The notes below the pieces were generated by a model. The model had not been told where the DNA came from and made no database searches. It worked only from the letters and a program-made list of their open reading frames with translations. From Candidatus Schekmanbacteria bacterium GWA2_38_11 (GTDB lineage Bacteria; Schekmanbacteria; GWA2-38-11): a DNA stretch of 10,531 nucleotides. This document shows positions 1 to 10,531 of the stretch, in pieces. The stretch covers positions 1 to 10,531 of the forward strand of contig MGDB01000158.1 of NCBI GenBank assembly GCA_001790645.1, given 5' to 3'. Each line of letters starts with the position of its first letter. Position 1 is the first letter of the stretch. Made by a program: the position numbers and the translations under genes.

Positions 1-2
1 AT

Positions 3-1013
3 CTGGATATCCCTAAAATAGCCGTAAGTAAGGTACGTTTTGCTTATGGCGGTGAATTTTCTGATCTTCCTGAAATGAATGATGCCTTTGTCATAAGGAG
101 AGATGAATTCGATTCTCTTTTATCAAAAAAGGCAACTGAAAGAGATTTAAAAATAAACCAGGAAGAAAAAGTTATAGATATAAAAAAAGATTCTGGAAGG
201 GTAAACATTTTAACTACTAAATCGAGCTATTCATGTAATGTAATTATTGGAGCAGATGGAGTCAAAAGTTCGGTCAGAAAAATATTAAAATTCCCTCAGA
301 GAAAATTGTCCCCTCTGTTAGTTACTGAAATCCCCATTCAAAAGGAAGATTCAATTGAGTTTAAAGAAAATCTAATAAGTTTTGATTTTTCCTTACTTTC
401 AAAGAGATTATCAGGTTACATCTGGTCTTTCCCATGTCTTATAAATAATTCTCCCTATTTAAACATAGGGATTTATCAATGGAATAGAGGGAGTTCGTCA
501 AACCTCAGCTTAAAAAATATTTTAAAGGATTACCTTTCAAAAAGAGGCTTTCAGACTAACTCAACAAAAATAAAAAGCTATGTTGAAAGGGACTTCTCTC
601 CTGAGGATCATATTTCGACACCCAACGTCATATTGGTCGGAGAATCAGCTGGAATTGATCCTCTTTTGGGAGAAGGAATTTCCCAGAGCCTGCAATATGG
701 CAAATTTGCTGCCCAGGAGATAATAAAGGCCTTTAAGTTTAATGATTTTTCATTCAGGGATTACAAAAATAATCTTTTTAAAATGAGTCTGGGCAAAGAG
801 ATCAAAGCCCTTATTACTTATGCCAATCAATTATATAATGGGAATTATAAATTCTGGTTAAGTCTTATTTTATACAATAAAGATTTAAAAGATTTTGTAT
901 TTTCAAGTGATTTCAGAGGCTATGGAAATTTTCATCAACATAAATTAAGGCTTTTAAACATCGCCCTAAGGCACAAACTATTTGGTAAGAAAAACTTACC
1001 AAATATGAGCTAA
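3..1013 (+). CDS. FAD-dependent oxidoreductase, geranylgeranyl reductase family (5' partial)
   Basis: The frame is open from the first complete codon at 3, with 24 codons before the first ATG at 75, so the true start and the N-terminal Rossmann GxGxxG motif lie outside the window. Seen: RRDEFD (codons from about 99), the typical R-x-x-F-D segment of this flavoprotein fold; GADGVKSSVR at about nt 249-278, matching the conserved DG motif that contacts FAD and NADPH in PHBH-like enzymes; and GESAGIDPLLGEGI at about nt 639-680, matching the usual GDAAG...P..GEGI FAD-ribityl motif with Glu in place of the usual Asp. Known for the family: reduction of isoprenoid double bonds (membrane lipids, menaquinone or chlorophyll side chains), or related FAD monooxygenase reactions. 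The substrate cannot be read from the sequence. The gene converges on the yacP-like gene. The last codons contain a perfect hairpin (981-1003). Confidence 0.85.
   Translation: MDIPKIAVSKVRFAYGGEFSDLPEMNDAFVIRRDEFDSLLSKKATERDLKINQEEKVIDIKKDSGRVNILTTKSSYSCNVIIGADGVKSSVRKILKFPQRKLSPLLVTEIPIQKEDSIEFKENLISFDFSLLSKRLSGYIWSFPCLINNSPYLNIGIYQWNRGSSSNLSLKNILKDYLSKRGFQTNSTKIKSYVERDFSPEDHISTPNVILVGESAGIDPLLGEGISQSLQYGKFAAQEIIKAFKFNDFSFRDYKNNLFKMSLGKEIKALITYANQLYNGNYKFWLSLILYNKDLKDFVFSSDFRGYGNFHQHKLRLLNIALRHKLFGKKNLPNMS
981..1003. repeat. Perfect 9-bp inverted repeat at the end of the oxidoreductase gene
   Basis: TTTGGTAAG (981-989) and CTTACCAAA (995-1003) are exact reverse complements separated by AAAAA. 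The hairpin lies in the last codons of the oxidoreductase gene, ending 7 nt before its stop. No T-run follows, so it is not a classical intrinsic terminator. It might protect the mRNA 3' end, or be chance in AT-rich DNA. Confidence 0.5.
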
Positions 1014-1052
1014 GTTGGACAATTTTATTGGACAAAAGAAGAAAAAATACAA

Positions 1053-1077
1053 GTAGGACAGGCGTCCCGCCTGTCCT
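1053..1077 (+). repeat. REP-like palindrome, GTAG head, singlet
   Basis: The tetranucleotide GTAG (1053-1056) runs into a perfect 10-bp palindrome: AGGACAGGCG (1055-1064), loop TCC, CGCCTGTCCT (1068-1077). The arrangement, a GTAG head then a short hairpin, is that of REP elements recognised by RAYT transposases (family knowledge). Related palindromes with different but still paired stems occur at 4781, 5893 and 8666 in this window. It lies between two convergent genes, a common site for REPs, and could also act as a bidirectional transcript end, though no T-tract follows on either strand. Confidence 0.65.
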
Positions 1078-1103
1078 CAAGAACAAGTAGAGGATTAAGT
1101 GTG

Positions 1104-1268
1104 TCCCCCTCACCTCAATCCTCTCCCCAGAGGGGAGAGGAAGCCAAAAACCACAATCTTTTTACCTCAATAAGAGAAGAAGCAATAGAAAAGGATTTTT
1201 TTCAAAATCAGAAGGAATGACAGTGAACAGCACCCTCTACCCGCCGGGGAGAGGGTCAGGGGGAGAGG
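1104..1268. repeat. MITE-like non-coding element with imperfect inverted ends
   Basis: The left part contains a 10-bp palindrome, TCCTCTCCCC (1119-1128), loop AGA, GGGGAGAGGA (1132-1141). The right part contains ACCCTCT (1232-1238) pairing with AGAGGGT (1250-1256) around a CCC/GGG inner stem. The two outer ends are also inverted relative to each other: 1104-1128 reads TCCCCCTCACC then CTCTCCCC after a 5-nt insert, and the reverse complement of 1247-1268 reads TCCCCCTGACC then CTCTCCCC. The roughly 100-nt interior has no ORF. Such an arrangement fits a small non-autonomous mobile element. No clear target-site duplication was seen, and the element stops just before the yacP-like stop codon at 1271. 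Confidence 0.5.
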
Positions 1269-1270
1269 TT

Positions 1271-1798
1271 CTACAACTTCTTAAGTTTGGACCTTATTTT
1301 CCTCTCCTCCTTTGATAGCCTTCTTGGGTTTCCTTTTTTCTTTGTAGATAATTTACCGGACTCCTGGAAACTGTCTTCATCCTTGCTGAAATCATCAGTC
1401 TGGAAAACACTGGCAAGCTCCATCTTATCCTTAAATTCTCCTGAAGAAACTACAGTAGCATTATATCGGTTGCAAAAATCTGCCACTTCCCTGTCAGATG
1501 TAACCACTATAAAATTTTCCCTTCCCTGTCCTCCTTTAACTATTTTTTTTATTACTTCATCAGCGCTTTCACCTGTCCTGGAATATATTATTGAAACTCC
1601 TCCTGTCCTGTCATACCCTTCAAAAAGGTTATTACTTCTCCATCCGTCAAAAACTATAGTTATGTCAAACTTTTTTATCTTTTTATAATCAGAAAGCTTT
1701 TTTATCAACGTATCTCTCTCGTTTTGCAAATCCCTGTTGCGCATTAAACCATATGCCCCGATTAAATTATAACCATCTATAACGAGCTTAGCCGGCAT
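1271..1798 (-). CDS. yacP: YacP/Rae1-like NYN domain protein (putative ribonuclease)
   Basis: A 175-residue protein. An NYN (PIN-like) nuclease fold is supported by VIDGYNLI at residues 6-13 (acidic D8, N11), VFDG at 49-52 (D51), YSRTGESADEVI at 72-83 (D80) and VVTSDREV at 98-105 (D102). These supply the acidic cluster expected to bind metal. The last 45 residues are charged and Lys/Arg-rich, typical of the family and possibly RNA-contacting. In Bacillus, Rae1/YacP is a ribosome-associated endoribonuclease; that the same role applies here is inference. The ATG at 1798 overlaps the end of the glmU-like gene by 11 nt and follows GAGGAG about 10 nt upstream, so translation is probably coupled. 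It is the last gene of the three-gene operon and converges on the oxidoreductase gene. Confidence 0.85.
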   Translation of the reverse strand: MPAKLVIDGYNLIGAYGLMRNRDLQNERDTLIKKLSDYKKIKKFDITIVFDGWRSNNLFEGYDRTGGVSIIYSRTGESADEVIKKIVKGGQGRENFIVVTSDREVADFCNRYNATVVSSGEFKDKMELASVFQTDDFSKDEDSFQESGKLSTKKKGNPRRLSKEERKIRSKLKKL

Positions 1799-2561
1799 GA
1801 GACATTATCTCCTCAACCTTTTTTAAATCATCAACAGTATTTACTCCTATAACTTCTCTCTCATCACCTACATGGAAGGAGTTGACCTCAATCCCCTTCT
1901 CAACTGCCTTGGCAACAATGTCAGTCAGGTAATACTCTCCCTGTTTATTTTCAGGTTTTAACCTGCGAAGGGTACTGAATAAGAAATTCTTGTTAACACA
2001 ATAAATCCCGCTGTTTATCTCGGCGATATTTTTTTCTTCCTCTGAAGCATCTTTTTCTTCAACTATTTTCAAAATTTTAAAATCTTCACCCCTCACGACT
2101 CTTCCGTAGCTTGTCGGGTCATTTGCTCTGGTTGTAAGTATTGACAGCATGGATCCGGAAATCATGTGGTCCCCGATGAATTCTTTTAATGTCTGCACCT
2201 TTAAAAGTGGCATATCACCATACAGGATCAGTACGTCGTTTTCGGAATTCTTCAATGCATTCTCAGACTGTAAGACTGCATGCCCGGTCCCTAACTGCTC
2301 CTTCTGAGAAACAAAGATTACCTTCTTCCCCTTAAGGTAATCTCTTATTCTCTCCTCCTGATATCCTACTATAACTGCTATAGGGTTGCACATAAGGCTT
2401 CCGGCAACTTTTAACACATAGCTGATCATTGGCTTCCCCTTGATTTCATGTAAAACTTTTGGAATATCAGATTTCATCCTTGTACCCTTACCGGCAGCAA
2501 GTATAATAGCAGAAACCTGGTATAAATAATCGCTCTCTATTTTCTCTATCCTTCCAGCCAT
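1788..2561 (-). CDS. glmU: GlmU-type sugar-1-phosphate uridylyltransferase, pyrophosphorylase domain only
   Basis: A 257-residue protein matching the N-terminal half of GlmU, which makes UDP-GlcNAc from GlcNAc-1-phosphate and UTP in the cytoplasm. Visible motifs: LAAGKGTRMKS at 21-31 (nucleotide loop), K36 in PKVLH, QLGTGHA at 89-95, YGDMPLL at 114-120 (D116 metal ligand), YGRV at 152-155, EEKDA at 168-172, EINSGIY at 181-187, GEYYLTD at 208-214 and GVNT at 239-242 (N241 metal ligand). The left-handed beta-helix acetyltransferase half (about 200 further residues) is absent: the protein ends normally and the next gene overlaps it, so this is not a frameshift. The ATG at 2561 is preceded by GGGGAGGAA and overlaps the mutase gene by 16 nt. 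Acetylation would need another enzyme, or the true substrate may be another sugar 1-phosphate. Confidence 0.88.
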   Translation of the reverse strand: MAGRIEKIESDYLYQVSAIILAAGKGTRMKSDIPKVLHEIKGKPMISYVLKVAGSLMCNPIAVIVGYQEERIRDYLKGKKVIFVSQKEQLGTGHAVLQSENALKNSENDVLILYGDMPLLKVQTLKEFIGDHMISGSMLSILTTRANDPTSYGRVVRGEDFKILKIVEEKDASEEEKNIAEINSGIYCVNKNFLFSTLRRLKPENKQGEYYLTDIVAKAVEKGIEVNSFHVGDEREVIGVNTVDDLKKVEEIMSHAG

Positions 2562-4723
2562 TTCCTCCCCCTATTAGTAAGACAATAAGAATCTTTTTTT
2601 ACTCCTTTAGCTAAAACTCTTTTAATCAGGCCTTCCCTTTTTTCTGTTTCCATTAAGACTCTTGTTATAAGATCAGATGGTTCAGTTTTTTCTTCATCAA
2701 GGAGTTTAATTAAAGATCCCTTTTCTATTCTCCCGTGTTTGTTTATTGTTTCAACTATCAATTTCTGAATCTTTGCATAAGAATTTTCATAATCTTTTAA
2801 AACCTTCCTCAAAAACCCTGTTATTTCTTCACCGATTTCAGACAATACTTCAGCATCTTCTTTCTTTCCTCTGAGATCAACTCCAGTTTTATCCTCTGTC
2901 CCGGAGTTTCTTATAAATATTACCCCCCTAACTTTTCTCCGGGAATCAATTAACGAGAAATATAAAAGATCCGGCTCCTCTTTTTTTATCTCAGTTTTTA
3001 ACTTAATTTTATTTTTAAAATAAAACCTGACTAACTTTTTTGTCAAACTCTTCACAGCCTTCCAGCTTTCAGAACCATCAAAAAATCTTCCTTTATCCGT
3101 ATAATAAATATATATAGTTTTTTTCATCCCGGCAATGAAAGGAGATCTCAGAGATTCTATGTAGCCTTTAAAATGCCGGTTCCTGTGCCAGTAGAGGCTG
3201 CATGTGGAAGCAAAACTGTTTAAAGCGCTCTTCAGACCATTGCCTATAAAAACAGGCTGAAGGCTTCTCTTCTTGTCCCTTATCAACCCTCCTGTAATAT
3301 TATGACCACTCTCCTCTGAACCTACAGCAAAATTAAAAACACTTTTCTCTATCCATCTGGTAAACTCATCTTCTCCAATCATCTCTCGGATAAGGTCTAT
3401 GTTTTTAAAAGCATTAGCCAACCTAAAGACGCTTATTGAGTTTAAATCTTGAATTCTCTTAACTGTGTTTCTCAAATCTCTAATCTCACTCCTATTCTTG
3501 ATATCATTTTTCCCTGAAACAAATCTGAGAAACGAATTTAAAACACCTATTATTGAGTTAGCTAAGAGCCATTTATCGCCTACTCCGGTTGACGTTATTC
3601 TAAAACCAAGCTCTTTTGCTGAAAGAGCTGCCTTAAGGTCGCTTTCAATAGTATTCACATAGTAAGAATTTTTATATTTGGAAGCATCCTTTTCTATAAG
3701 AAACTTTCCCTGGACAAAGGCTATCTCATCCCCGGCTAATACCAAAATTTCATCTCTCACGGGATCATATTCAAGCCTGAAAAACCTGTCTCCATCAGCA
3801 TCGAATATTGCCCCTGAAACAAAGGTTTCCTTTTTCAGGATCTTTTCCCTGTAAATTCTTCCAATTTTAAAAATCTTTTTTAGAGCGGAATTCTCAGCAA
3901 ATTTCGGGAAAGGAGCTCCCTTCTTTTCAAAAACCATTGAAGGAGATATTTCTGTAAATCCGCTGATGTCTGAAACTCCGCTGTTCCTGTTGACCTCTCC
4001 CTTAATGTCATCATTTACGTCTATTACTTTTTTGAAACCTGATCTCTTAAATACCTGAGATGCAATACCAGAAAAAGAGCCGTTGGCTGAGTCCACGATC
4101 AAAATCCCATCTTTTATAAAATTTTCTTTTTCTATCCACGAATTCCTGGAATCAAGCATAAAATCAAAAAATACCTTGAGAACTTTACCATGTTCGTCTC
4201 TGAATCCTCCTGACAGTTTAATTGATTTCACATTATCATAGTCTGTTTTATAAACGACCTGAGTCAAAACTTTATCATCCTCTGGAAATAATTTAAGGCC
4301 CATTGGATAGAGAAAAAGTTTTATTCCATTCTGATCCGCGGGATTATGAGAAGCTGTTATCATCACTCCTGCTTTAGCACCTTTATATGCCATGTATAAT
4401 GGAAGAGCTGGCGTTGGAATAATTCCAAGGCTTGTTGCAAAGCCGCCTGCTTTCCTGATTCCTTTAATCGAGGCCTTTGTAATAAGGCCGCGTTTATCCC
4501 TCGGGTCCCATCCAACAAGCACCTCATCACCAGGGCGAACTGTATTCATCCTTATCAAAAGAGAAACAAAGCAATAAGTATAAAGCTCTACAAACTCCTC
4601 AGTAATTATCCTTTTTTCTAACAAAGCCTCTAAAGGAGTTAACCCTGCCACCTCAGGATCAGATGATTTTAAAGTTCGTCCCCTTATCCCGTCAGTACCC
4701 TGGAGCCGTTCCGGAAATTTCAT
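2546..4723 (-). CDS. Alpha-D-phosphohexomutase superfamily protein with insertions and a C-terminal winged-helix-like tail
   Basis: A 725-residue protein, against about 450-580 for most family members. It interconverts hexose 6- and 1-phosphates. All four family signatures are present: GTDGIRG at the N-terminus (9-15), TASHNP at 123-128 with catalytic Ser125, the metal loop DADGDR at 308-313, the sugar-binding GSEESGH at 468-474 (GEESGH type) and the phosphate loop RNSGTE at 605-610. TGVGDKW at 379-385 is also recognisable. The extra length sits in a segment before the metal loop (about 255-300), an 82-residue stretch between TGVGDKW and GSEESGH that is normally much shorter, and a C-terminal extension (about 645-725) that looks like a winged helix (KIQKLIVETINKHG, then a basic hairpin ending LTNRGRKWLEG). 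The ATG at 4723 has AGGA 9 nt upstream. It is first in an operon with the GlmU-like gene, suggesting supply of the sugar 1-phosphate. Mutase assignment is firm; substrate is not. Confidence 0.88.
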   Translation of the reverse strand: MKFPERLQGTDGIRGRTLKSSDPEVAGLTPLEALLEKRIITEEFVELYTYCFVSLLIRMNTVRPGDEVLVGWDPRDKRGLITKASIKGIRKAGGFATSLGIIPTPALPLYMAYKGAKAGVMITASHNPADQNGIKLFLYPMGLKLFPEDDKVLTQVVYKTDYDNVKSIKLSGGFRDEHGKVLKVFFDFMLDSRNSWIEKENFIKDGILIVDSANGSFSGIASQVFKRSGFKKVIDVNDDIKGEVNRNSGVSDISGFTEISPSMVFEKKGAPFPKFAENSALKKIFKIGRIYREKILKKETFVSGAIFDADGDRFFRLEYDPVRDEILVLAGDEIAFVQGKFLIEKDASKYKNSYYVNTIESDLKAALSAKELGFRITSTGVGDKWLLANSIIGVLNSFLRFVSGKNDIKNRSEIRDLRNTVKRIQDLNSISVFRLANAFKNIDLIREMIGEDEFTRWIEKSVFNFAVGSEESGHNITGGLIRDKKRSLQPVFIGNGLKSALNSFASTCSLYWHRNRHFKGYIESLRSPFIAGMKKTIYIYYTDKGRFFDGSESWKAVKSLTKKLVRFYFKNKIKLKTEIKKEEPDLLYFSLIDSRRKVRGVIFIRNSGTEDKTGVDLRGKKEDAEVLSEIGEEITGFLRKVLKDYENSYAKIQKLIVETINKHGRIEKGSLIKLLDEEKTEPSDLITRVLMETEKREGLIKRVLAKGVKKDSYCLTNRGRKWLEG

Positions 4724-4780
4724 ATATTTAAATCCTAAAAAAAATTCTAAACAAACCCAAATTACCTAAATTCAAAAAGA

Positions 4781-4818
4781 ATAGGTCAGGCATCTTGCCT
4801 GACTCTGCGCGCCTCTAC
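4781..4818 (+). repeat. REP-like palindrome, degenerate head
   Basis: GTCAGGCA (4785-4792), loop TCT, TGCCTGAC (4796-4803) form a perfect 8-bp hairpin. It is preceded by ATAG rather than GTAG. The same architecture occurs at 1053-1077, with the stem base pairs changed on both sides (CAGGCG/CGCCTG there, CAGGCA/TGCCTG here). CTAC at 4815-4818, the complement of GTAG, may mark the far end of a decayed inverted partner, with GCGCGC (4807-4812) in between. Confidence 0.55.
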
Positions 4819-4823
4819 ATCAT

Positions 4824-4848
4824 ATCTCCCTTTTTGAAAAAGGGGGAT
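4824..4848. repeat. 12-bp palindrome ATCTCCCTTTTT / AAAAAGGGGGAT
   Basis: 4824-4835 pairs with 4837-4848 around a single G, with one G-T pair (4827/4845). It is a long, separate intergenic palindrome of a different type from the GTAG-headed ones. It lies downstream of oppC on the minus strand and might end that transcript, but no T-tract follows the hairpin, so a terminator call is weak. Confidence 0.5.
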
Positions 4849-4992
4849 TTACCGTTACAATTAATAGTAGACCTAAACAAGCTGATCAAAAATTCCTTAT
4901 AAAAAATTCTAATTTCTAAATTCTAAACTGTTTTGAACATTTGAATTTTTGATTTTGGTAATTGTTTAGAATTTAAGGTTTTATTTCTTAAA

Positions 4993-5844
4993 TCATCTTC
5001 TCCTCAACCTCGGGTCTATTGCATCCCTGATCCCTTCTCCAAGAAGATTATATCCGAGAACTGTAACGAGAATTGCAAGACCCGGAAAAAGAGACAGCCA
5101 CCAGGCTAACTCGATATTATCCTTGCCAGAGGTCAGGATGTTCCCCCAGCTTGGCGTCGGCGGCTGAACGCCAATACCTAAAAAGCTCAGAGCAGATTCT
5201 ATAAGGATTGCTCCTGCCACCCCAAGCGTTGCCGAGACAAGCACCGGAGCCATTGCATTGGGGAGAATATGTCTCGCAATTATTACAAGGTCGTTTGCAC
5301 CAATTGATTTTGCAGCTAAAACGAATTCTCTGCTTTTTAAACTTAAGATTTCTGCCCTGATAAGCCTTGCAACCCCGGTCCAGCTTGTTAAGCCAATAAC
5401 TATCATTATGTTGGTGATACTCGGTTCAAGAATCGCAACGACAGCAAGTATTAAAAAGAACGTAGGGAAGCAAAGCATAATATCAACAAACCTCATGATT
5501 ATACTATCCGCTAATTTCCCGTAATATCCTGCAATCGAACCCAGAAAAACTCCGACAACTGTAGCTATTCCAACAGCTACAAACCCGACTTTAAGGGATA
5601 TCCTTGCCCCGAAAACTACACGGCTAAAAACATCTCTCCCGAGTTCATCAGTCCCAAATAAATGATTTGAGCTGGGAGGAAGCAATATCTCTTCAACATT
5701 TATCTGCTCCGGATCATAAGGGGATATAAACGGTGCAAAAAAGGAAATGACAAACAGAGCCATCACAACAACCCCTCCTGCAACGGCGAGTTTATTCCTC
5801 CTTAACTCCTTCCAGAAATTTGTCCAGAATCTTTCTTTTTTCAT
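4993..5844 (-). CDS. oppC: Peptide/nickel-type ABC transporter permease, OppC/DppC family
   Basis: A 283-residue inner-membrane permease, full length for the family. The N-terminal OppC domain has a first membrane segment at about 17-40, SPYDPEQ at 41-47, and the conserved GTDELGRDVFSR at 64-75. The EAA loop that docks the ATPase is at about 173-197 (EFVLAAKSIGA followed by ILPNA). FLGIGVQPPTPSWGNIL (221-237) and the C-terminal NLLGEGIRDAIDPRL (266-280) are also classic. The substrate (peptides, nickel or other) cannot be told from the permease. The ATG at 5844 has AGGA about 5 nt upstream. It is separated from oppB by 167 nt filled by a REP-like doublet, unusual inside a transporter operon and a possible cause of lower oppC expression. 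No ATPase gene follows: the next gene downstream is the unrelated mutase. Confidence 0.93.
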   Translation of the reverse strand: MKKERFWTNFWKELRRNKLAVAGGVVVMALFVISFFAPFISPYDPEQINVEEILLPPSSNHLFGTDELGRDVFSRVVFGARISLKVGFVAVGIATVVGVFLGSIAGYYGKLADSIIMRFVDIMLCFPTFFLILAVVAILEPSITNIMIVIGLTSWTGVARLIRAEILSLKSREFVLAAKSIGANDLVIIARHILPNAMAPVLVSATLGVAGAILIESALSFLGIGVQPPTPSWGNILTSGKDNIELAWWLSLFPGLAILVTVLGYNLLGEGIRDAIDPRLRRR

Positions 5845-5892
5845 TTTGTTCCTAACTCAAGACTCCACCAACGCTTAACTACGAACTCTATA

Positions 5893-5955
5893 GTAGGGCA
5901 AGGCTTTAGCCTTGCTTAAAGCCTGCAGGCAGGCAACCCTAAAGGGTTGCCCTAC
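5893..5955. repeat. REP-like head-to-head doublet (BIME-like) between oppB and oppC
   Basis: The outer ends GTAGGGCAA (5893-5901) and TTGCCCTAC (5947-5955) are exact inverted repeats. Each end runs into its own hairpin: GCAAGGC (5898-5904), loop TTTA, GCCTTGC (5909-5915); and GGCAACCC (5932-5939), loop TAAA, GGGTTGCC (5944-5951). GCCTGCAGGC (5921-5930) is a perfect palindrome in the centre. The element is therefore two GTAG-headed units facing each other, with stems that differ (AAGGC against AACCC) but still pair, and can fold as a cloverleaf-like structure. In enterobacteria such paired REPs stabilise or attenuate operon mRNA; that function here is inference. Confidence 0.75.
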
Positions 5956-6000
5956 ATTCTAAAAAATTAAACTCGTTTGTTATTTGGAATTTAATTACCC

Positions 6001-6012
6001 TAATCACCTCCT
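6001..6012 (-). promoter_or_regulatory. Orphan extended Shine-Dalgarno sequence at the oppB stop
   Basis: On the minus strand the oppB stop TGA runs into AGGAGGTGATTA, which matches the 16S anti-Shine-Dalgarno complement AAGGAGGTGAT almost completely. No ATG, GTG or TTG with a usable frame follows at 5-12 nt. The next gene, oppC, starts about 160 nt further on with its own weaker AGGA. The simplest reading is that this was the oppC ribosome binding site before the repeat doublet entered the spacer. Confidence 0.5.
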
Positions 6013-6986
6013 CATCCATACCTTATTCTCGGATCAGCTACAGCATATAAAATATCAGCTATCAAGTTACCTACCATGGTAAGTACTGCTCCTATTACCA
6101 ATATCCCCATAATCAGTGGATAATCTCTTGCCATGACACTCATATAAAAAAGCTGCCCCATACCAGGAATAGCAAAAATTGTCTCAAAGATAACACTCCC
6201 CCCGATTAACCCCGGTACTGAAAAACCCAATATTGTTATTACCGGAAGCAGGGCGTTTCTGAGGGCATGTTTTCCAATGACAGTACTTTCAGCCAGGCCT
6301 TTGGAGCGTGCAGCAATAATAAAATCCTGCCTTATTACTTCAAGCATGTTTGATCTTGCATAACGTGACAGCCCGGCTAAATCCCCGAAAGCAGAGACAA
6401 AGAGCGGCATAATCAAATGCTTTGCGAGATCAATAAATTGCCCCACGAAAGATAATTCATGATAATCCATAGAATGCAGTCCGGATATAGGCAGCCAGCC
6501 CAGATTAACCCCAAAAAAAATCATAAGGAGCAGAGCTAACCAGAATGTCGGGATAGCAAATCCCACAAAGACAAAGACTGTCGTAAGTTTGTCAAAAAGA
6601 GAATACTGAAACCTTGCTGACAGGACACCTATTGGTATAGCAACACAAAATATGATAATCAAAGATAATACATTGATACTTATTGTTATGGGAATCCTTT
6701 CCCTGATCTTATCAATTACCTTCCTGTTATCCGGTGAAAAGGACCTCCCAAAATCGAGCAAAAAAAGCCTTTTTACCCAGTTAACGTACTGAACGTGGAG
6801 CGGTTTATCAAGCCCATAGATCTCCCTTAATCTTTGTTTTGCTAAACTTGATGCCTTGGGATTGAACTGTGTCTGAAGGTCTGTTGGCTCGCCCGGAGCT
6901 AAATGGATTACTATAAATGAGATTAGTGTAATCCCGATTACGAGTGGAATCATCATAAAGAATCTTTGCAGAAGATAAAAAAACAC
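6012..6986 (-). CDS. oppB: Peptide/nickel-type ABC transporter permease, OppB/DppB family
   Basis: A 324-residue permease of normal family length. It begins with the OppB-type membrane segment (about 5-28) ending IHLAPGEP (27-34), and has [14 protein letters not shown] (57-70), several further membrane segments (about 103-123, 136-159, 189-200, 246-262, 292-314), the EAA loop at about 221-247 ([10 protein letters not shown], then HALRNALLP), FAIPGMGQL (271-279) and the C-terminal DPRIRYG. It forms the membrane channel with OppC. The start is GTG at 6986, preceded 8 nt upstream by GGAAGG. The spacing from the substrate-binding protein gene is 14 nt, so the two are co-transcribed. A near-perfect Shine-Dalgarno sequence overlaps its stop codon. 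Confidence 0.93.
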
Positions 6987-7000
6987 TCGAAGGACCTTCC

Positions 7001-8737
7001 TTATTGGGTTAGTTCAACATACTTCTGCTCATTTTTCGGGACATACCATTTTATGAAGTTATAGCTTATTCCTGCCGGGGCGGGATTAATGTTTTTAAAT
7101 CTTGCGTTTACTATAGGTAAAGCATCAGGAACATAAAGAAAGACATAGGGTTGTTCTTCAGCAAATATCTCCTGGATTCTGAAGTAACATTTTTTCCTTT
7201 CTTCCTGGTCAAAAGTCCCTCTCCCTTTTACAAGCAACCTATCAACCTCTGCATTTTTAAAAGTCACGTGGTTTAATTCGTCAGGTCCGGTCTTGCTGGA
7301 ATGCCAGACATCAAAGAGGTCAGGGTCCGGAGGAATATTCCAACCCAGAATAATGGCTTCAAACTTTCTTGTACGGATAAACTCTTTTAAAAAAGCTGAC
7401 CACTCTACAATCCTTATTTTAACTGAAATCCCTGCATCTTTTAGCCGCCTCTGGATGATCTGTGCAGACTTTTCTCTCTCCTCGTTCCCCTGATTAGTCA
7501 GAATGGTAAATTCAAATTTTTTCCCGTTTTTTTCAAGAATACCATCTTTGTCGGTATTCTTCCACCCTGCCTCATTTAAAAGTTCCTTTGCCTTATCAGT
7601 AGAAAACTCATACTTTTTGACATCTGGATTGTATGCCCACATATCTGGTTTATAAGGACCGGTTGCAATAACACCAAGACCCAGCAAGACGCCGTCAATT
7701 ATTTCCTGTTTGTTAATTGCATAGGAAATTGCCTGTCTGACCCTTTTATCTTTAAACCTGGGATCAAGGAGGTTAAATCCCAAATAAGTATAGCTAAAGG
7801 AAAGATATTTAAATTTATTAAAATTTTTCTTTATTTTGGCGTTCTCTGTCTGCCTTTTATATTGAAAAGGTGCAAGACCCATCCAGTCTATACCGCCAGC
7901 TTTGAGTTCCAAAAACATTGTTGCCGAATCAGGGATTATTCTGTAAATAAACCTGTCAATATATGGTCTGCCTTCAAAATAATTATGGTTTGACTCAAGT
8001 ACAATTTTTTCTCCTGTCTTCCATTCCTTAAACTTATAAGAACCTGTACCTATCGGGTTTCTCGCTAAACTGCTCTTGGTAATATCCTTTCCCATAAGAA
8101 GATGGCTTGGCAAAATCCCGATAGACCAGCTTATAAGCCCGGGAGCAAAAGGCTTTTTATAAGTCACCCTAAAGGTATATTTATCCAGGACTTCAGCTTT
8201 TTTTACCTGGAGGAAATCACCGCCGTATGCTGTCGGAGTTTTAGGGTCTATCATAACTTTATACGTGTACATCACATCATCAGCAGTAAACGGTTTCCCG
8301 TCATGCCAGCTTACGTCTTTTCGAAGATGGAAGGTAATAACAAGTCCGCCATCAGAAACATCCCAGCTCTCTGCCAGTACTCCTTCTGTAATCAGGTCTT
8401 TATTATACCTTACCAGTCCGCCATAAACAAGGTCTGCTATTTCATGGGAAGCACTGTCAGAAGCAAGCTCAGGTATGAGGTTTGAAGCATCTCCAATGCT
8501 ACCTTCAATGATTGCATCGCCATAAGCAGGTTCACTTTTTACGTGTGAGGCTTCTTTATTTTTTACACCGCTATCTTCTTTCGGGGCTTCTTTTTGTGTG
8601 CAGCCTAAAGTAAAAGTTATTAATATTATTAATCCTATTAGCACCGCACTGATAGCCGCAGGCTCGTAGCTGAGGACTTTAGTCCTTAGGTTTACCCTGC
8701 GACAAGATAAAAACGTTTTAAATTTCGCTGCTCTCAC
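7001..8737 (-). CDS. ABC transporter substrate-binding lipoprotein, SBP_bac_5 (peptide/nickel) family
   Basis: A 578-residue extracytoplasmic binding protein delivering substrate to the OppB/OppC permeases. A hydrophobic segment (29-42) precedes Cys46 in FTLGC, a slightly non-standard lipobox, followed by a charged linker. Family hallmarks: GLVRYNKDL (about 107-115), [13 protein letters not shown] (about 143-155), [13 protein letters not shown] (about 228-240) and [16 protein letters not shown] (about 332-347). The GTG start at 8737 has GGGGAAG just upstream and overlaps the ftsB-like stop as GTGA, indicating translational coupling. Oddity: residues 13-27 are encoded exactly by a 45-nt palindromic repeat (8657-8701), giving an n-region of about 28 residues. 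Without it the signal peptide would be about 31 residues to the Cys, a normal size. The transported substrate cannot be inferred. Confidence 0.92.
8657..8701 (+). repeat. REP-like palindromic element within the lipoprotein signal-peptide coding region
   Basis: The outer arms CGCAGG (8657-8662) and CCTGCG (8696-8701) are inverted repeats. Inside them GTAG (8666-8669) is followed by the hairpin CTGAGGAC (8670-8677), loop TTTA, GTCCTTAG (8682-8689), with one G-T pair. Head and loop match those of the doublet at 5893. The 45-nt unit begins and ends on codon boundaries of the minus-strand gene, is a multiple of three and is free of stops, so it adds 15 residues ([15 protein letters not shown]) without disrupting the reading frame. 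Confidence 0.65.
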
Positions 8738-9066
8738 TTCTTCCCCTGTTTGTCTAAAAATTTGTAAACTATCTCCCCTTTTTTCACCAGATCGAGTTCC
8801 TCTCTCGCAGCTTTCTCAACCCAGAAGGGATCACTCCTTGCAGCAGCCAACTCCAGGGTAAGTTTCTGGTTTTCCTTTTTGATACTTTCGATTTCATTAG
8901 TAATATTTATTTTTTCTGCCCGCAGGTCTTTTATTCTCAAATATCCTTTGTCGCCAAAAATAAAATTCAGCGCTAAAAAAATAAAATAAACCACCGCAAC
9001 GCAGATTGCAAATTTAAACTTCCCATTCTTCAGGCTATTCTTTATCTGCTTAACTCTTCTTTTCAT
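8734..9066 (-). CDS. ftsB: FtsB/DivIC-family septum formation initiator protein
   Basis: A 110-residue bitopic membrane protein. A short basic cytoplasmic N-terminus (KRR, several Lys) is followed by one membrane helix (about 18-37), a coiled coil (about 43-75, heptads of Leu/Ile with Glu/Lys), then DPFWVEKAAREEL (79-91) and LVKKGEIVYKF (93-103), the typical family C-terminus. FtsB/DivIC forms a complex with FtsL and FtsQ/DivIB that activates septal peptidoglycan synthesis (family knowledge). The ATG at 9066 has no clear Shine-Dalgarno sequence. Its stop overlaps the GTG of the binding-protein gene, tying a cell-division gene to a transporter operon. The family is divergent in sequence, so FtsB versus DivIC cannot be separated. 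Confidence 0.85.
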   Translation of the reverse strand: MKRRVKQIKNSLKNGKFKFAICVAVVYFIFLALNFIFGDKGYLRIKDLRAEKINITNEIESIKKENQKLTLELAAARSDPFWVEKAAREELDLVKKGEIVYKFLDKQGKK

Positions 9067-9115
9067 TTAAGGCGGGAGAATAAAGTTATAAATTCAAAAT
9101 TTAATATAAATATTA

Positions 9116-9145
9116 TTTTTAAGGTAAGGTTAAGCCCATTGTCAA
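9116..9145 (-). promoter_or_regulatory. Possible sigma-70-type promoter for the ftsB-transporter operon
   Basis: On the minus strand a perfect TTGACA (9145-9140) is followed after 18 nt by TAAAAA (9121-9116), four of six matches to TATAAT. The site is about 50 nt upstream of the ftsB-like start, in very AT-rich DNA. The -10 box is weak, so this is tentative. Confidence 0.3.
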
Positions 9146-9205
9146 GAAATTTTAAAAAAGTTGTTTCAAGAAGGTGGTGAGGAAGGGTATAGCTTGATAA
9201 AATAA

Positions 9206-9313
9206 ATTAAGAAAGCAGGAAAGTTTGAGTATAATTACTTAAGAAAACATGGAGGCTTGAACAACGAGATACCTTTTGATAAGCTCCAAAAAGTTACCGA
9301 ATTATTGAGCTAG
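9206..9313 (+). pseudogene. C-terminal remnant of an integrase-core (rve-type) transposase
   Basis: The plus-strand frame from 9206 to the TAG at 9311 encodes about 35 residues containing YNYLRKHGGLNN followed by IPFDKLQKVTELLS. This is the pattern at the very end of DDE integrase-core transposases (IS3/IS481-like), where Y-N-x-x-R-x-H-x-x-L precedes a T/I-P-x-x-x-L motif. An in-frame stop (TAA, 9203) closes the frame upstream and I find no continuation in other frames, so only the tail survives. The sequence after it, GTACAACCGTCCCCTTTA (9314-9331), could be the insertion-sequence end. It sits exactly at the composition boundary. Confidence 0.65.
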
Positions 9314-9347
9314 TACAACCGTCCCCTTTATCCTGTGGCAATTCCCC
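9314..9347. mobile_element. Probable IS end and composition boundary
   Basis: Immediately after the transposase stop the sequence reads GTACAACCGTCCCCTTTA and then becomes GC-rich. To the left, DNA is roughly 35-42% GC; from about 9332 to the window end it is roughly 55-60% by eye. A matching inverted copy of this end was not found elsewhere in the window, so the call rests on position only. Both a transfer junction and an assembly join are possible. Confidence 0.35.
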
Positions 9348-10531
9348 CTACTCCCCCAACTCCCTCACCATTGCTTCCACCCGATATCCTGCCTGCTCGG
9401 CTGCCTCCAAAATCTGCCGCGCCATCTGCAACGCTGTTGCCGCCGTCGAGTCGTTCAGCTTGCTCTTGGCCTTGAGTTGAATGATGACCGCCAAAAGCAG
9501 CGCGCTCACCAGTCGCTCAAGCTGCTCCTTATTGACATAGAGAACATCCTCATAGCGGTGGATATGCAGATACTCGGCCACTCTCGGATCGACCAGTACC
9601 TCTTTCATCGCCTGCGCAATCGTCATTTTCGAGTATGGCGCCAGCGTATCCTCGAACGTCACCATGATCGATACAAGCAACGCATCAGCATATCCGAAAC
9701 TCTCGCTGCCGGAGAATTCGCGGAAAGCCGACATCAACGATTTCGCCAGCAGCCACTCATCAAGCCGCTTCTCCGCCAACACCGTCGCCGGTGCTGCCTC
9801 GCCTTTTGCGCGCAGATGTCCCAGCCGATGCGTCGTAATCCAGCCGATTGCCACATGATGCAACGGCCGTGTCTGCTTGCCGCCGCATTCCGACAACAAT
9901 TCATCCAGCAACCCCCGACCCATATCGCGATCATCCAGTCGCTCATCCACAGGCACGACATTCACTTCGTTCATGATGTCCAACAGCATATTCTCATATC
10001 CCGACTCGGCTCCTGCGTAGTCCTGCGCCATCGCCAGATACCGGGCCATGGCCTGATGAAATTTCTTTCGCGGTTCACGATCGTCCGTCGGCAGGCTGTA
10101 CAGCATCTCCGCATTGATCGCCTCGCGGAATGGCGTCAACAACGGCTCCAGTGTCATCTCTCGATAGGCTTCTTCAATGCTCGGCACACCACACCCCTGC
10201 AATTTGCACGCCAAATTCCACCACGATCCGTCATGGTCATACACTTCCCGCCAATCAAGAAACGCCATGTACTGATAGGCATGCAGCTCGGCAAACAGCC
10301 CTTCATCCCCAATTTGCTTGCCGGCTCGCACGTATTCCAACCCGGTGCGGTAATCACGGAAAATGTAGTACACCCGTTCTCGCGCATCGAGCGCCAGCGC
10401 TTCCGCCAACGTCCGCGTCACCAGATACTCTTCATCCCCGGTACCCACGTTGATCTGCGTCGATGTATGTATCGTGCCACGCGTTGTATTGTAGGCGTTG
10501 TTGTAGAGGATGATCGCCCGCTCGCCGCCGG
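9348..10531 (-). CDS. Probable C-terminal part of a GH13 alpha-amylase-type protein (5' partial)
   Basis: The minus-strand frame is open to the window edge. Besides the 366 residues after the in-frame GTG at 10448, 27 more codons are readable upstream (GERAIILYNNAYNTTRG and on), so the GTG is internal and the real start lies outside. The visible segments ERAIILYNNAYNTTRG, YYIFRDYRTGLEYVRAG, LFAELHAYQYMAFLDWREVYD and GCGVPSIEEAYREM resemble the region following the catalytic barrel in large bacterial alpha-amylase-family proteins, as I remember them. No catalytic residues are in the window, so enzyme activity cannot be judged. The rest is mainly helical, ending in a Leu/Ala-rich stretch. GC content and codon use (many G/C third positions) differ sharply from every other gene here, indicating transfer or a chimeric contig. 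It could also be a different multidomain protein. Confidence 0.55.
   Translation of the reverse strand, partial: GGERAIILYNNAYNTTRGTIHTSTQINVGTGDEEYLVTRTLAEALALDARERVYYIFRDYRTGLEYVRAGKQIGDEGLFAELHAYQYMAFLDWREVYDHDGSWWNLACKLQGCGVPSIEEAYREMTLEPLLTPFREAINAEMLYSLPTDDREPRKKFHQAMARYLAMAQDYAGAESGYENMLLDIMNEVNVVPVDERLDDRDMGRGLLDELLSECGGKQTRPLHHVAIGWITTHRLGHLRAKGEAAPATVLAEKRLDEWLLAKSLMSAFREFSGSESFGYADALLVSIMVTFEDTLAPYSKMTIAQAMKEVLVDPRVAEYLHIHRYEDVLYVNKEQLERLVSALLLAVIIQLKAKSKLNDSTAATALQMARQILEAAEQAGYRVEAMVRELGE

Follow-up and report, generated by a model that had tools for sequence, protein, structure and literature searches.

How does a palindromic repeat come to lie within the export signal of a lipoprotein, and is it read there as protein? 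The question is raised by a gene for a family-5 ABC substrate-binding lipoprotein in the 10,531-base stretch of DNA analysed here (the window, G000:C158:1-10531), which comes from an assembly (G000) of 2.11 Mb in 158 contigs that is 70% complete. Very probably, a mobile palindrome landed in frame in the lipoprotein's export signal and hence gave it extra translated residues. The features on which this answer depends are listed below, with coordinates in the window; the listed gene starts are compared with those of related genomes (G001 and G002), and the repeat with copies elsewhere in G000 (C51, C155, C131 and C106).

7001-8737, minus strand: family-5 ABC substrate-binding lipoprotein gene, 578 aa (open reading frame; Pfam SBP_bac_5, E 6e-104)
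8734-9066, minus strand: DivIC/FtsB-type septum formation initiator gene (Pfam DivIC, E 1.4e-20), its stop overlapping the lipoprotein start by 4 bp
8705-8737, minus strand: codons 1-11, the basic start of the signal peptide before the insertion (open reading frame; the overlap with the DivIC stop recurs in G001 and G002)
8652-8701, plus strand: composite REP unit of 50 nt (aligned with the C51, C155 and C131 copies and the C106 part-copy)
8657-8662, plus strand: left arm of the outer palindrome, CGCAGG (from the sequence)
8666-8689, plus strand: inner GTAG-headed hairpin (GTAG 8666-8669, stem 8670-8678/8681-8689, TT loop 8679-8680)
8696-8701, plus strand: right arm of the outer palindrome, CCTGCG (from the sequence; found in all five copies)
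8600-8653, minus strand: codons 29-46, hydrophobic core and lipobox cysteine past the insertion (from the sequence; two bases of codon 29 belong to the unit)

The composite unit and its repeat family

An earlier, sequence-only reading of this DNA had described a 45-nt REP-like palindrome with the inverted ends CGCAGG/CCTGCG and a GTAG-headed hairpin. The ends (8657-8662 and 8696-8701) and the hairpin (8666-8689) are located exactly as it had placed them, but the unit is 50 nt long (8652-8701), because the other copies put the tetranucleotide head at 8652. On the plus strand this head is ATAG in the window copy and GTAG in the other copies. The designation REP-like holds in so far as the genome contains further copies of a REP family; the unit is, however, not a plain REP. 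Its architecture is that of an outer GTAG-type REP (TAGCCGCAGGC…CCTGCG) with a second GTAG-headed hairpin within its loop, and the inner stem of the window copy comprises 9 bp, one of which is a G-U pair.

The blastn search of the genome that had been proposed as a check, run with window positions 8635-8720 (86 bases), revealed four further copies or part-copies on C51, C155, C131 and C106 (E 4.8e-11 to 2.5e-8; 86-92% identity over 36-53 bases), besides two shorter hits (15 and 17 bases). The alignment gives GTAGCC[G/A]CAGG[C/TT]CGTAGCTGAAGGCTTTAGCCTTCAGGTTTACCCTGCG for the other full copies, which are 49, 49 and 50 nt long, and the C106 copy consists of the inner hairpin and the right arm only. 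A 31-base core pattern with up to three mismatches matched the window once, at the unit itself, versus a mean of 0.00 in 200 shuffles; genome-wide it matched twice (the window and C106) and the reversed control not at all.

A simple REP, GTAGCCGCAGGCTTTAGCCTGCG, has the same outer arms and occurs in 38 exact copies in G000, and the wider outer pattern TAGCCGCAGGN{0,45}CCTGCG has 50 matches in the genome and none in the reversed control. This outer family agrees with the definition of a GTAG REP, i.e. a palindrome of 20-40 bp with an unpaired GTAG at one end that is present in many, mainly extragenic copies (50 pattern matches; two of 53 copies well inside Pfam-supported genes). The window copy departs from the strict form of this definition, being a composite of 49-50 nt headed by ATAG. 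Among 193 genomes searched, the composite was present only in its own, G000, and the exact simple REP in 11, G000 included. An independent inner REP family was considered and rejected: the pattern GTAGN{2,8}GGCTTTAGCC has 84 exact matches, of which those with the inner form GTAGCTGARGG are confined to C51, C106, C131 and C155, and no further free-standing family of that inner form was seen among these matches.

The loop of the outer REP can also be filled in other ways. Three copies carry a palindrome of the TTCCTGC-/TACCTGC-type and one copy, on C133, carries another; the situation is similar in G001. In the copies at C133:1130-1176 (G000) and C11:61543-61589 (G001) the palindromic centre of such a filling is kept and the letters differ (CGAGCTCG vs TGAGCTCA), suggesting paired changes in what would be an older composite REP.

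Both arms are present in four copies; in three of these the outer six pairs are complete, and in C131 one pair is broken. C106 is without the left arm. The inner nine pairs hold in all five copies, with two pairs changed on both sides between copies. In the shuffle control, 13 of 500 shuffles attained the observed percentage paired, and 13 each did so for the double-change cells and for the covariation score; 57 of 500 attained the number of doubly changed pairs and all 500 that of further pair types, so that with only five rows the covariation in the inner stem is no more than suggestive. Folded alone as a single strand, the unit at 8652-8701 is stable (z -3.20), and the 121-nt region around it is not unusually so in comparison with shuffles (z 0.39). 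A hairpin that blocks translation was considered and rejected, since this region is no more stable than its shuffles.

Candidate enzymes for mobilising such elements are present in the genome. Five Y1_Tnp matches were found in G000, and both of the two open reading frames tested scored above the cut-off of REP_Tyr_transpos (NF047646). At 12 RAYT-type loci (five in G000, seven in G001), other GTAG/ATAG palindromes adjoin the gene or none do, with just an 8-base half-word at two G001 loci; a RAYT gene flanked by REPs of this outer family (GTAGCCGCAGG) occurred at none of the 12, an absence that weighs little in an assembly that is 70% complete.

The host gene, its start and its reading frame

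The palindrome had been assigned to the coding region of an ABC substrate-binding lipoprotein, and this assignment is confirmed by the SBP_bac_5 match to a minus-strand gene that begins with GTG at 8737. The gene order is a DivIC/FtsB-type gene, the lipoprotein gene and two permease genes (Pfam BPD_transp_1). The overlap of GTG 8737 with the DivIC stop reads GTGA. In G001, the nearest genome among those compared and a member of the same family, the orthologue has the same GTGA overlap without the repeat and its protein begins MRGFVRVLFGIILILIFAFGC; in G002 the overlap reads ATGA, again without the repeat. Pfam confirmed both neighbours, DivIC and SBP_bac_5, in both genomes. Since the start at the DivIC overlap is kept in G001 and G002 genes that have no repeat, a misplaced start in the window is unlikely. 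This synteny is a property of the nearest genomes: at none of 80 loci of a separate genome-contig collection, searched by tblastn, was DivIC found on the same strand.

An in-frame GTG follows the repeat at 8644, and a product starting there would have a signal peptide without a basic residue before the core. The predicted ribosome site is stronger at GTG 8737 (-6.7 kcal/mol) than at GTG 8644 (-1.7 kcal/mol), which weakly favours the former; 18% of 400 random positions match or beat -6.7 kcal/mol, and rare start codons further down reach -5.7. A misplaced start was therefore regarded as disfavoured by the conserved DivIC overlap in G001 and G002 and, weakly, by the strength of the ribosome site.

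Read on the minus strand, positions 8652-8701 encode residues 13-28 and two bases of codon 29. The observation that the palindrome begins and ends on codon boundaries is correct for 8657-8701, which are codons 13-27, but the 50-nt unit amounts to 16 codons and 2 nt and the argument drawn from the boundaries was partly accidental. Because 50 nt is not a multiple of three, either the insertion event added or removed bases or the unit does not end where it is drawn; the net length inserted has to be divisible by three. The window copy is open in one of six frames, and this is the frame used. Elsewhere, the C51 form is likewise open in one of six frames, the C131 form in two and the simple REP in three.

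With the insert the n-region has 28 residues and a net charge of +6, and without it 11 residues and +3. The best mean hydropathy over ten residues is 3.5 with the insert in or out, according to a simple hydropathy script rather than a trained predictor; by the same script, the protein has the basic n-region, hydrophobic core and lipobox cysteine of a lipoprotein signal peptide. Two features count against the answer given at the outset. The lipobox cysteine is at residue 46, the second highest position among the 116 of 120 listed proteins that gave a lipobox-like cysteine (median 22, 95th percentile 32, one protein at 62), and the insert carries E and P near its end.

Orthologous N-termini were compared, as the sequence-only reading had proposed, among the best 120 of 7,998 homologues passing the E-value cut; the third-ranked of these is labelled Candidatus Schekmanbacteria, which makes a lineage near that group likely for the window. 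Within residues 1-90, 119 of the 120 share no 5-residue word with the peptide, and the residues are missing from the G001 and G002 proteins as well. Repeat words were also absent from the 5' part of the open reading frame at all 80 further loci from another collection, in 79 of which the upstream stop of the frame lay within the locus. Thus, the repeat is wholly inside a real gene, in an open frame behind a start of conserved position, and orthologues occur without its residues. The one listed homologue with words of the peptide, P0001, differs from the window protein at residues 346, 372 and 507; a difference at residue 1 is one of start-codon notation only. It is listed on a 3,530-base contig, belongs to a cluster of eight sequences and may derive from the same population as the window. 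As a second sequence with the same peptide and three residue differences, P0001 makes an assembly error unlikely. No empty site was found at near-identical DNA, so the net length of the insertion, its ends and any target duplication are not fixed by comparison.

The searches in the genome and among homologues thus revealed neither a unique 45-nt sequence nor orthologues that show the same residues without a repeat copy. The view that an extragenic palindrome became coding sequence, in frame and at a tolerant site, is supported by the other genomic copies, the orthologues without insert and the conserved start, and on these grounds the residues are predicted to be translated.

Copies inside genes and elsewhere in the window

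For the whole of G000, 53 copies of the outer family were considered, comprising the 50 pattern matches and the copies at C131:2037, C106:2588 and C106:7769, with duplicates in identical context merged. Seven of them lie well inside open reading frames, defined as more than 30 bases of frame on both sides in a frame of at least 60 aa. A Pfam match was obtained for two of these seven, the SBP_bac_5 lipoprotein gene and argS, with one frame tested per copy and further overlapping frames of L120 and L122 left out. Open reading frames cover 89% of window positions 1-9300, and if insertion and survival ignored genes, about 47 of the 53 copies would be expected inside genes by our own estimate. The proposal that selection retained only an in-frame insertion fits both the single open frame in six and the two of 53 copies well inside identifiable genes. 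At the edges of Pfam-supported frames, one copy is found at a start (L168) and two at stops (L133 and L138). At L168 the repeat corresponds to residues 5-12 of a called PNP_UDP_1 (phosphorylase-family) frame and is followed by an ATG; the start is probably misannotated and the repeat upstream of the true one.

The argS copy (L120, G000:C2, 456-2201, minus strand) is a REP of the outer family at 1501-1523 that encodes VAAGLSLR in frame. The REP-bearing protein scores 502 bits against TIGR00456 (argS; cut-off 261.65), and the stretch with VAAGLSLR is missing from the proteins of G001, G002 and G024, the genomes used for this comparison (G026 was left out as a wrong open reading frame and G003 as a fragment without the region). 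The REP sits in a low-complexity stretch with adjoining simple repeats (GGGCAAAGGGCAAAGGG; GCTGATAGC-like), and G001 ArgS has KIQNSKFK...IQN residues, repeat-like too, at the same loop. Judged from these sequences, repeats seem to accumulate at this one loop of an essential enzyme.

In G001, 4 of 16 copies are well inside open reading frames, two of them with a Pfam match and two without. At L185 (1173-2204, plus strand), an in-frame REP (VAAGFSLR) is located in a TonB-family protein upstream of the TonB_C domain. At L198 (1467-3020, minus strand), the REP (TQAKACGY) is located close to the C-terminus of a NuoM-like frame, whose end is 36 bases away; the REP also lies just within the called start of the next gene and may be intergenic. 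Another 42 GTAG REPs have the GGCTTTAGCC core, C106:2588 being counted both here and among the 53 family copies. Four of them are well inside open reading frames, none with a Pfam match, and at frame edges L217 alone is Pfam-positive, as a Y1_Tnp remnant with the repeat 24 bases from the frame's start. The Pfam set for this core consisted of the four frames with inside copies, five edge frames and one overlapping frame; some edge frames of 61-66 aa were left out. In several places the TAG of the GTAG head is the stop of the neighbouring frame (L129, L133, L138 and L163 in G000, L186 in G001); by Pfam these frames are a radical SAM protein (L133), an M50/CBS protein (L138) and a glycosyltransferase (L186), with no match for L129 and L163.

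The window holds other palindromes, at 5893-5955, 1053-1075, 1106-1268 and 4780-4830, all between called genes. The first comprises two REPs of the GTAGGGCAA type that face opposite ways (at 5893 and at 5932), and the last is a hairpin-like stretch near 4785 seen by eye; a GTAGGACAGG hairpin and a 35-nt inverted repeat with 74% complementarity are also among them. The GC content changes from 38% (1-9300) to 56% (9301-10531), and a frame of 366 aa at 9348-10448 (minus strand) matches nothing in Pfam, NCBIfam or PHROGs. This part of the window, 9301-10531, may be a foreign insert or a chimeric contig end.

Alternative readings and relation to known elements

In the sequence of events that we consider very probable, a composite REP, moved in trans by a Y1 (RAYT-type) transposase or multiplied in a different way, would have entered the 5' end of the lipoprotein gene at the point where the basic n-region of the signal peptide gives way to its hydrophobic core. 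Of the six ways of reading this copy, a single one has no stop, and the gene uses that one. Translation would still begin at the original GTG and continue over some 17 residues encoded by the REP (16 complete ones and a share of the codon that follows), producing a lipoprotein signal peptide with an unusually long and more positive n-region. The inserted residues precede the cleavage cysteine, so that the mature lipoprotein would be unchanged if the signal works and the insertion would be close to neutral.

An alternative that we regard as unlikely is that the repeat is extragenic in practice, with translation starting past it, at GTG 8644 or a rare start codon, and the repeat forming a 5' leader and perhaps an mRNA element. 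Such a reading is prompted by the in-frame GTG, by the stable hairpin that 8652-8701 forms alone and by L168, which resembles such a case, as well as by the view expressed in PMC3733652 that most REPs at the 5' ends of P. putida, C. koseri and S. maltophilia frames may not be coding. It does not account for the start kept at the DivIC overlap in G001 and G002, nor for the 33 bases of codons 1-11 ahead of the repeat, from which a regular basic n-region is read. In the shortened product, K and R would be absent ahead of the hydrophobic core, and the frame through the unit is open where the other five of six are closed. The poorer ribosome site of GTG 8644 adds weakly to these objections, and R. 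conorii proteins with an N-terminal RPE-1 are expressed, according to the same paper.

It is very unlikely that the unit was recruited and kept by selection, with an early coding hairpin or the longer basic n-region tuning expression or export of the lipoprotein. The nine inner pairs are kept although two of them differ on both sides from three other copies (13 of 500 shuffles), and the insertion is common to the window and P0001; yet there are only five copies, double-change pairs and further pair types are reached by 57 and 500 of 500 shuffles, the changes may pre-date the insertion (one is common to C106), and the 121-nt region with flanks does not exceed its shuffles in stability (z 0.39). 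That the palindrome is an error of assembly or sequencing, or arose by chance from coding sequence, is extremely unlikely. The break in base composition at about 9,250-9,300, with a contig end that may be foreign, could raise such a doubt, but it is about 550-600 bases away from the unit; P0001 has the unit on another contig, the genome contains four further copies, and the core pattern is expected zero times in shuffles. A bolder extension of the preferred reading is improbable as well: the composite would be a young compound element that moves as one unit, its stop-free frame would make it a portable extension of signal peptides or loops, and its hairpin would persist in the coding copy owing to an effect of the mRNA structure on lipoprotein expression.

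An in-frame insertion of the kind that we favour here is already known in other bacteria; its lineage, the composite element and the signal-peptide site with a supported start are new. Rickettsia palindromic elements were reportedly described by Ogata et al. in 2000. The sequence-only reading considered the phenomenon unusual, which does not stand, as it had been published for GTAG REPs (PMC3733652) and for Rickettsia elements (PMC10969869). PMC3733652 (2013) describes GTAG REPs inside open reading frames of several species, tRNA synthetases included, and REP ends that often provide the TAG stop of flanking frames. It also holds that most REPs coding for N-termini may be extragenic through misannotation, R. 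conorii proteins with an N-terminal RPE-1 being expressed nevertheless. The window family shares with those intragenic REPs the GTAG head, the short palindrome, the many, mostly intergenic copies and the reading of some as protein. It differs in lineage and in the architecture of the window unit, one hairpin being nested in another REP's loop; unlike the N-terminal cases suspected there to be extragenic, this unit lies in a signal peptide whose start is backed by synteny. No report of an intragenic REP in a signal peptide was recognised from titles and the beginnings of abstracts, and the list of intragenic REPs in PMC3733652 may contain one.

The Rickettsia elements, as described in PMC10969869, are about 150 bp long, occur in frame in unrelated protein genes and lie in open reading frames in nearly half of the cases. 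A palindromic repeat in frame within unrelated protein genes is common to both systems, whereas the repeats here measure 23-50 nt and only two of 53 copies lie well inside identifiable genes. The two systems differ in lineage and length. A search for 'Rickettsia palindromic element' together with 'signal peptide' and 'insertion' found nothing. The RAYT/REP_Tyr_transpos system (NF047646; PMC8266576) is paralleled by the RAYT-type genes in the genome, several of which lie beside GTAG palindromes, and differs in that no RAYT was found beside this REP family at the 12 loci of G000 and G001.

The locus thus offers a well-controlled case of non-coding mobile DNA that would have become protein at an N-terminus, a position where earlier authors had suspected annotation errors. 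Composite REPs with a hairpin within a hairpin exist as copies dispersed through one genome, and n-regions of signal peptides and linker loops appear to be tolerant of such sequence.
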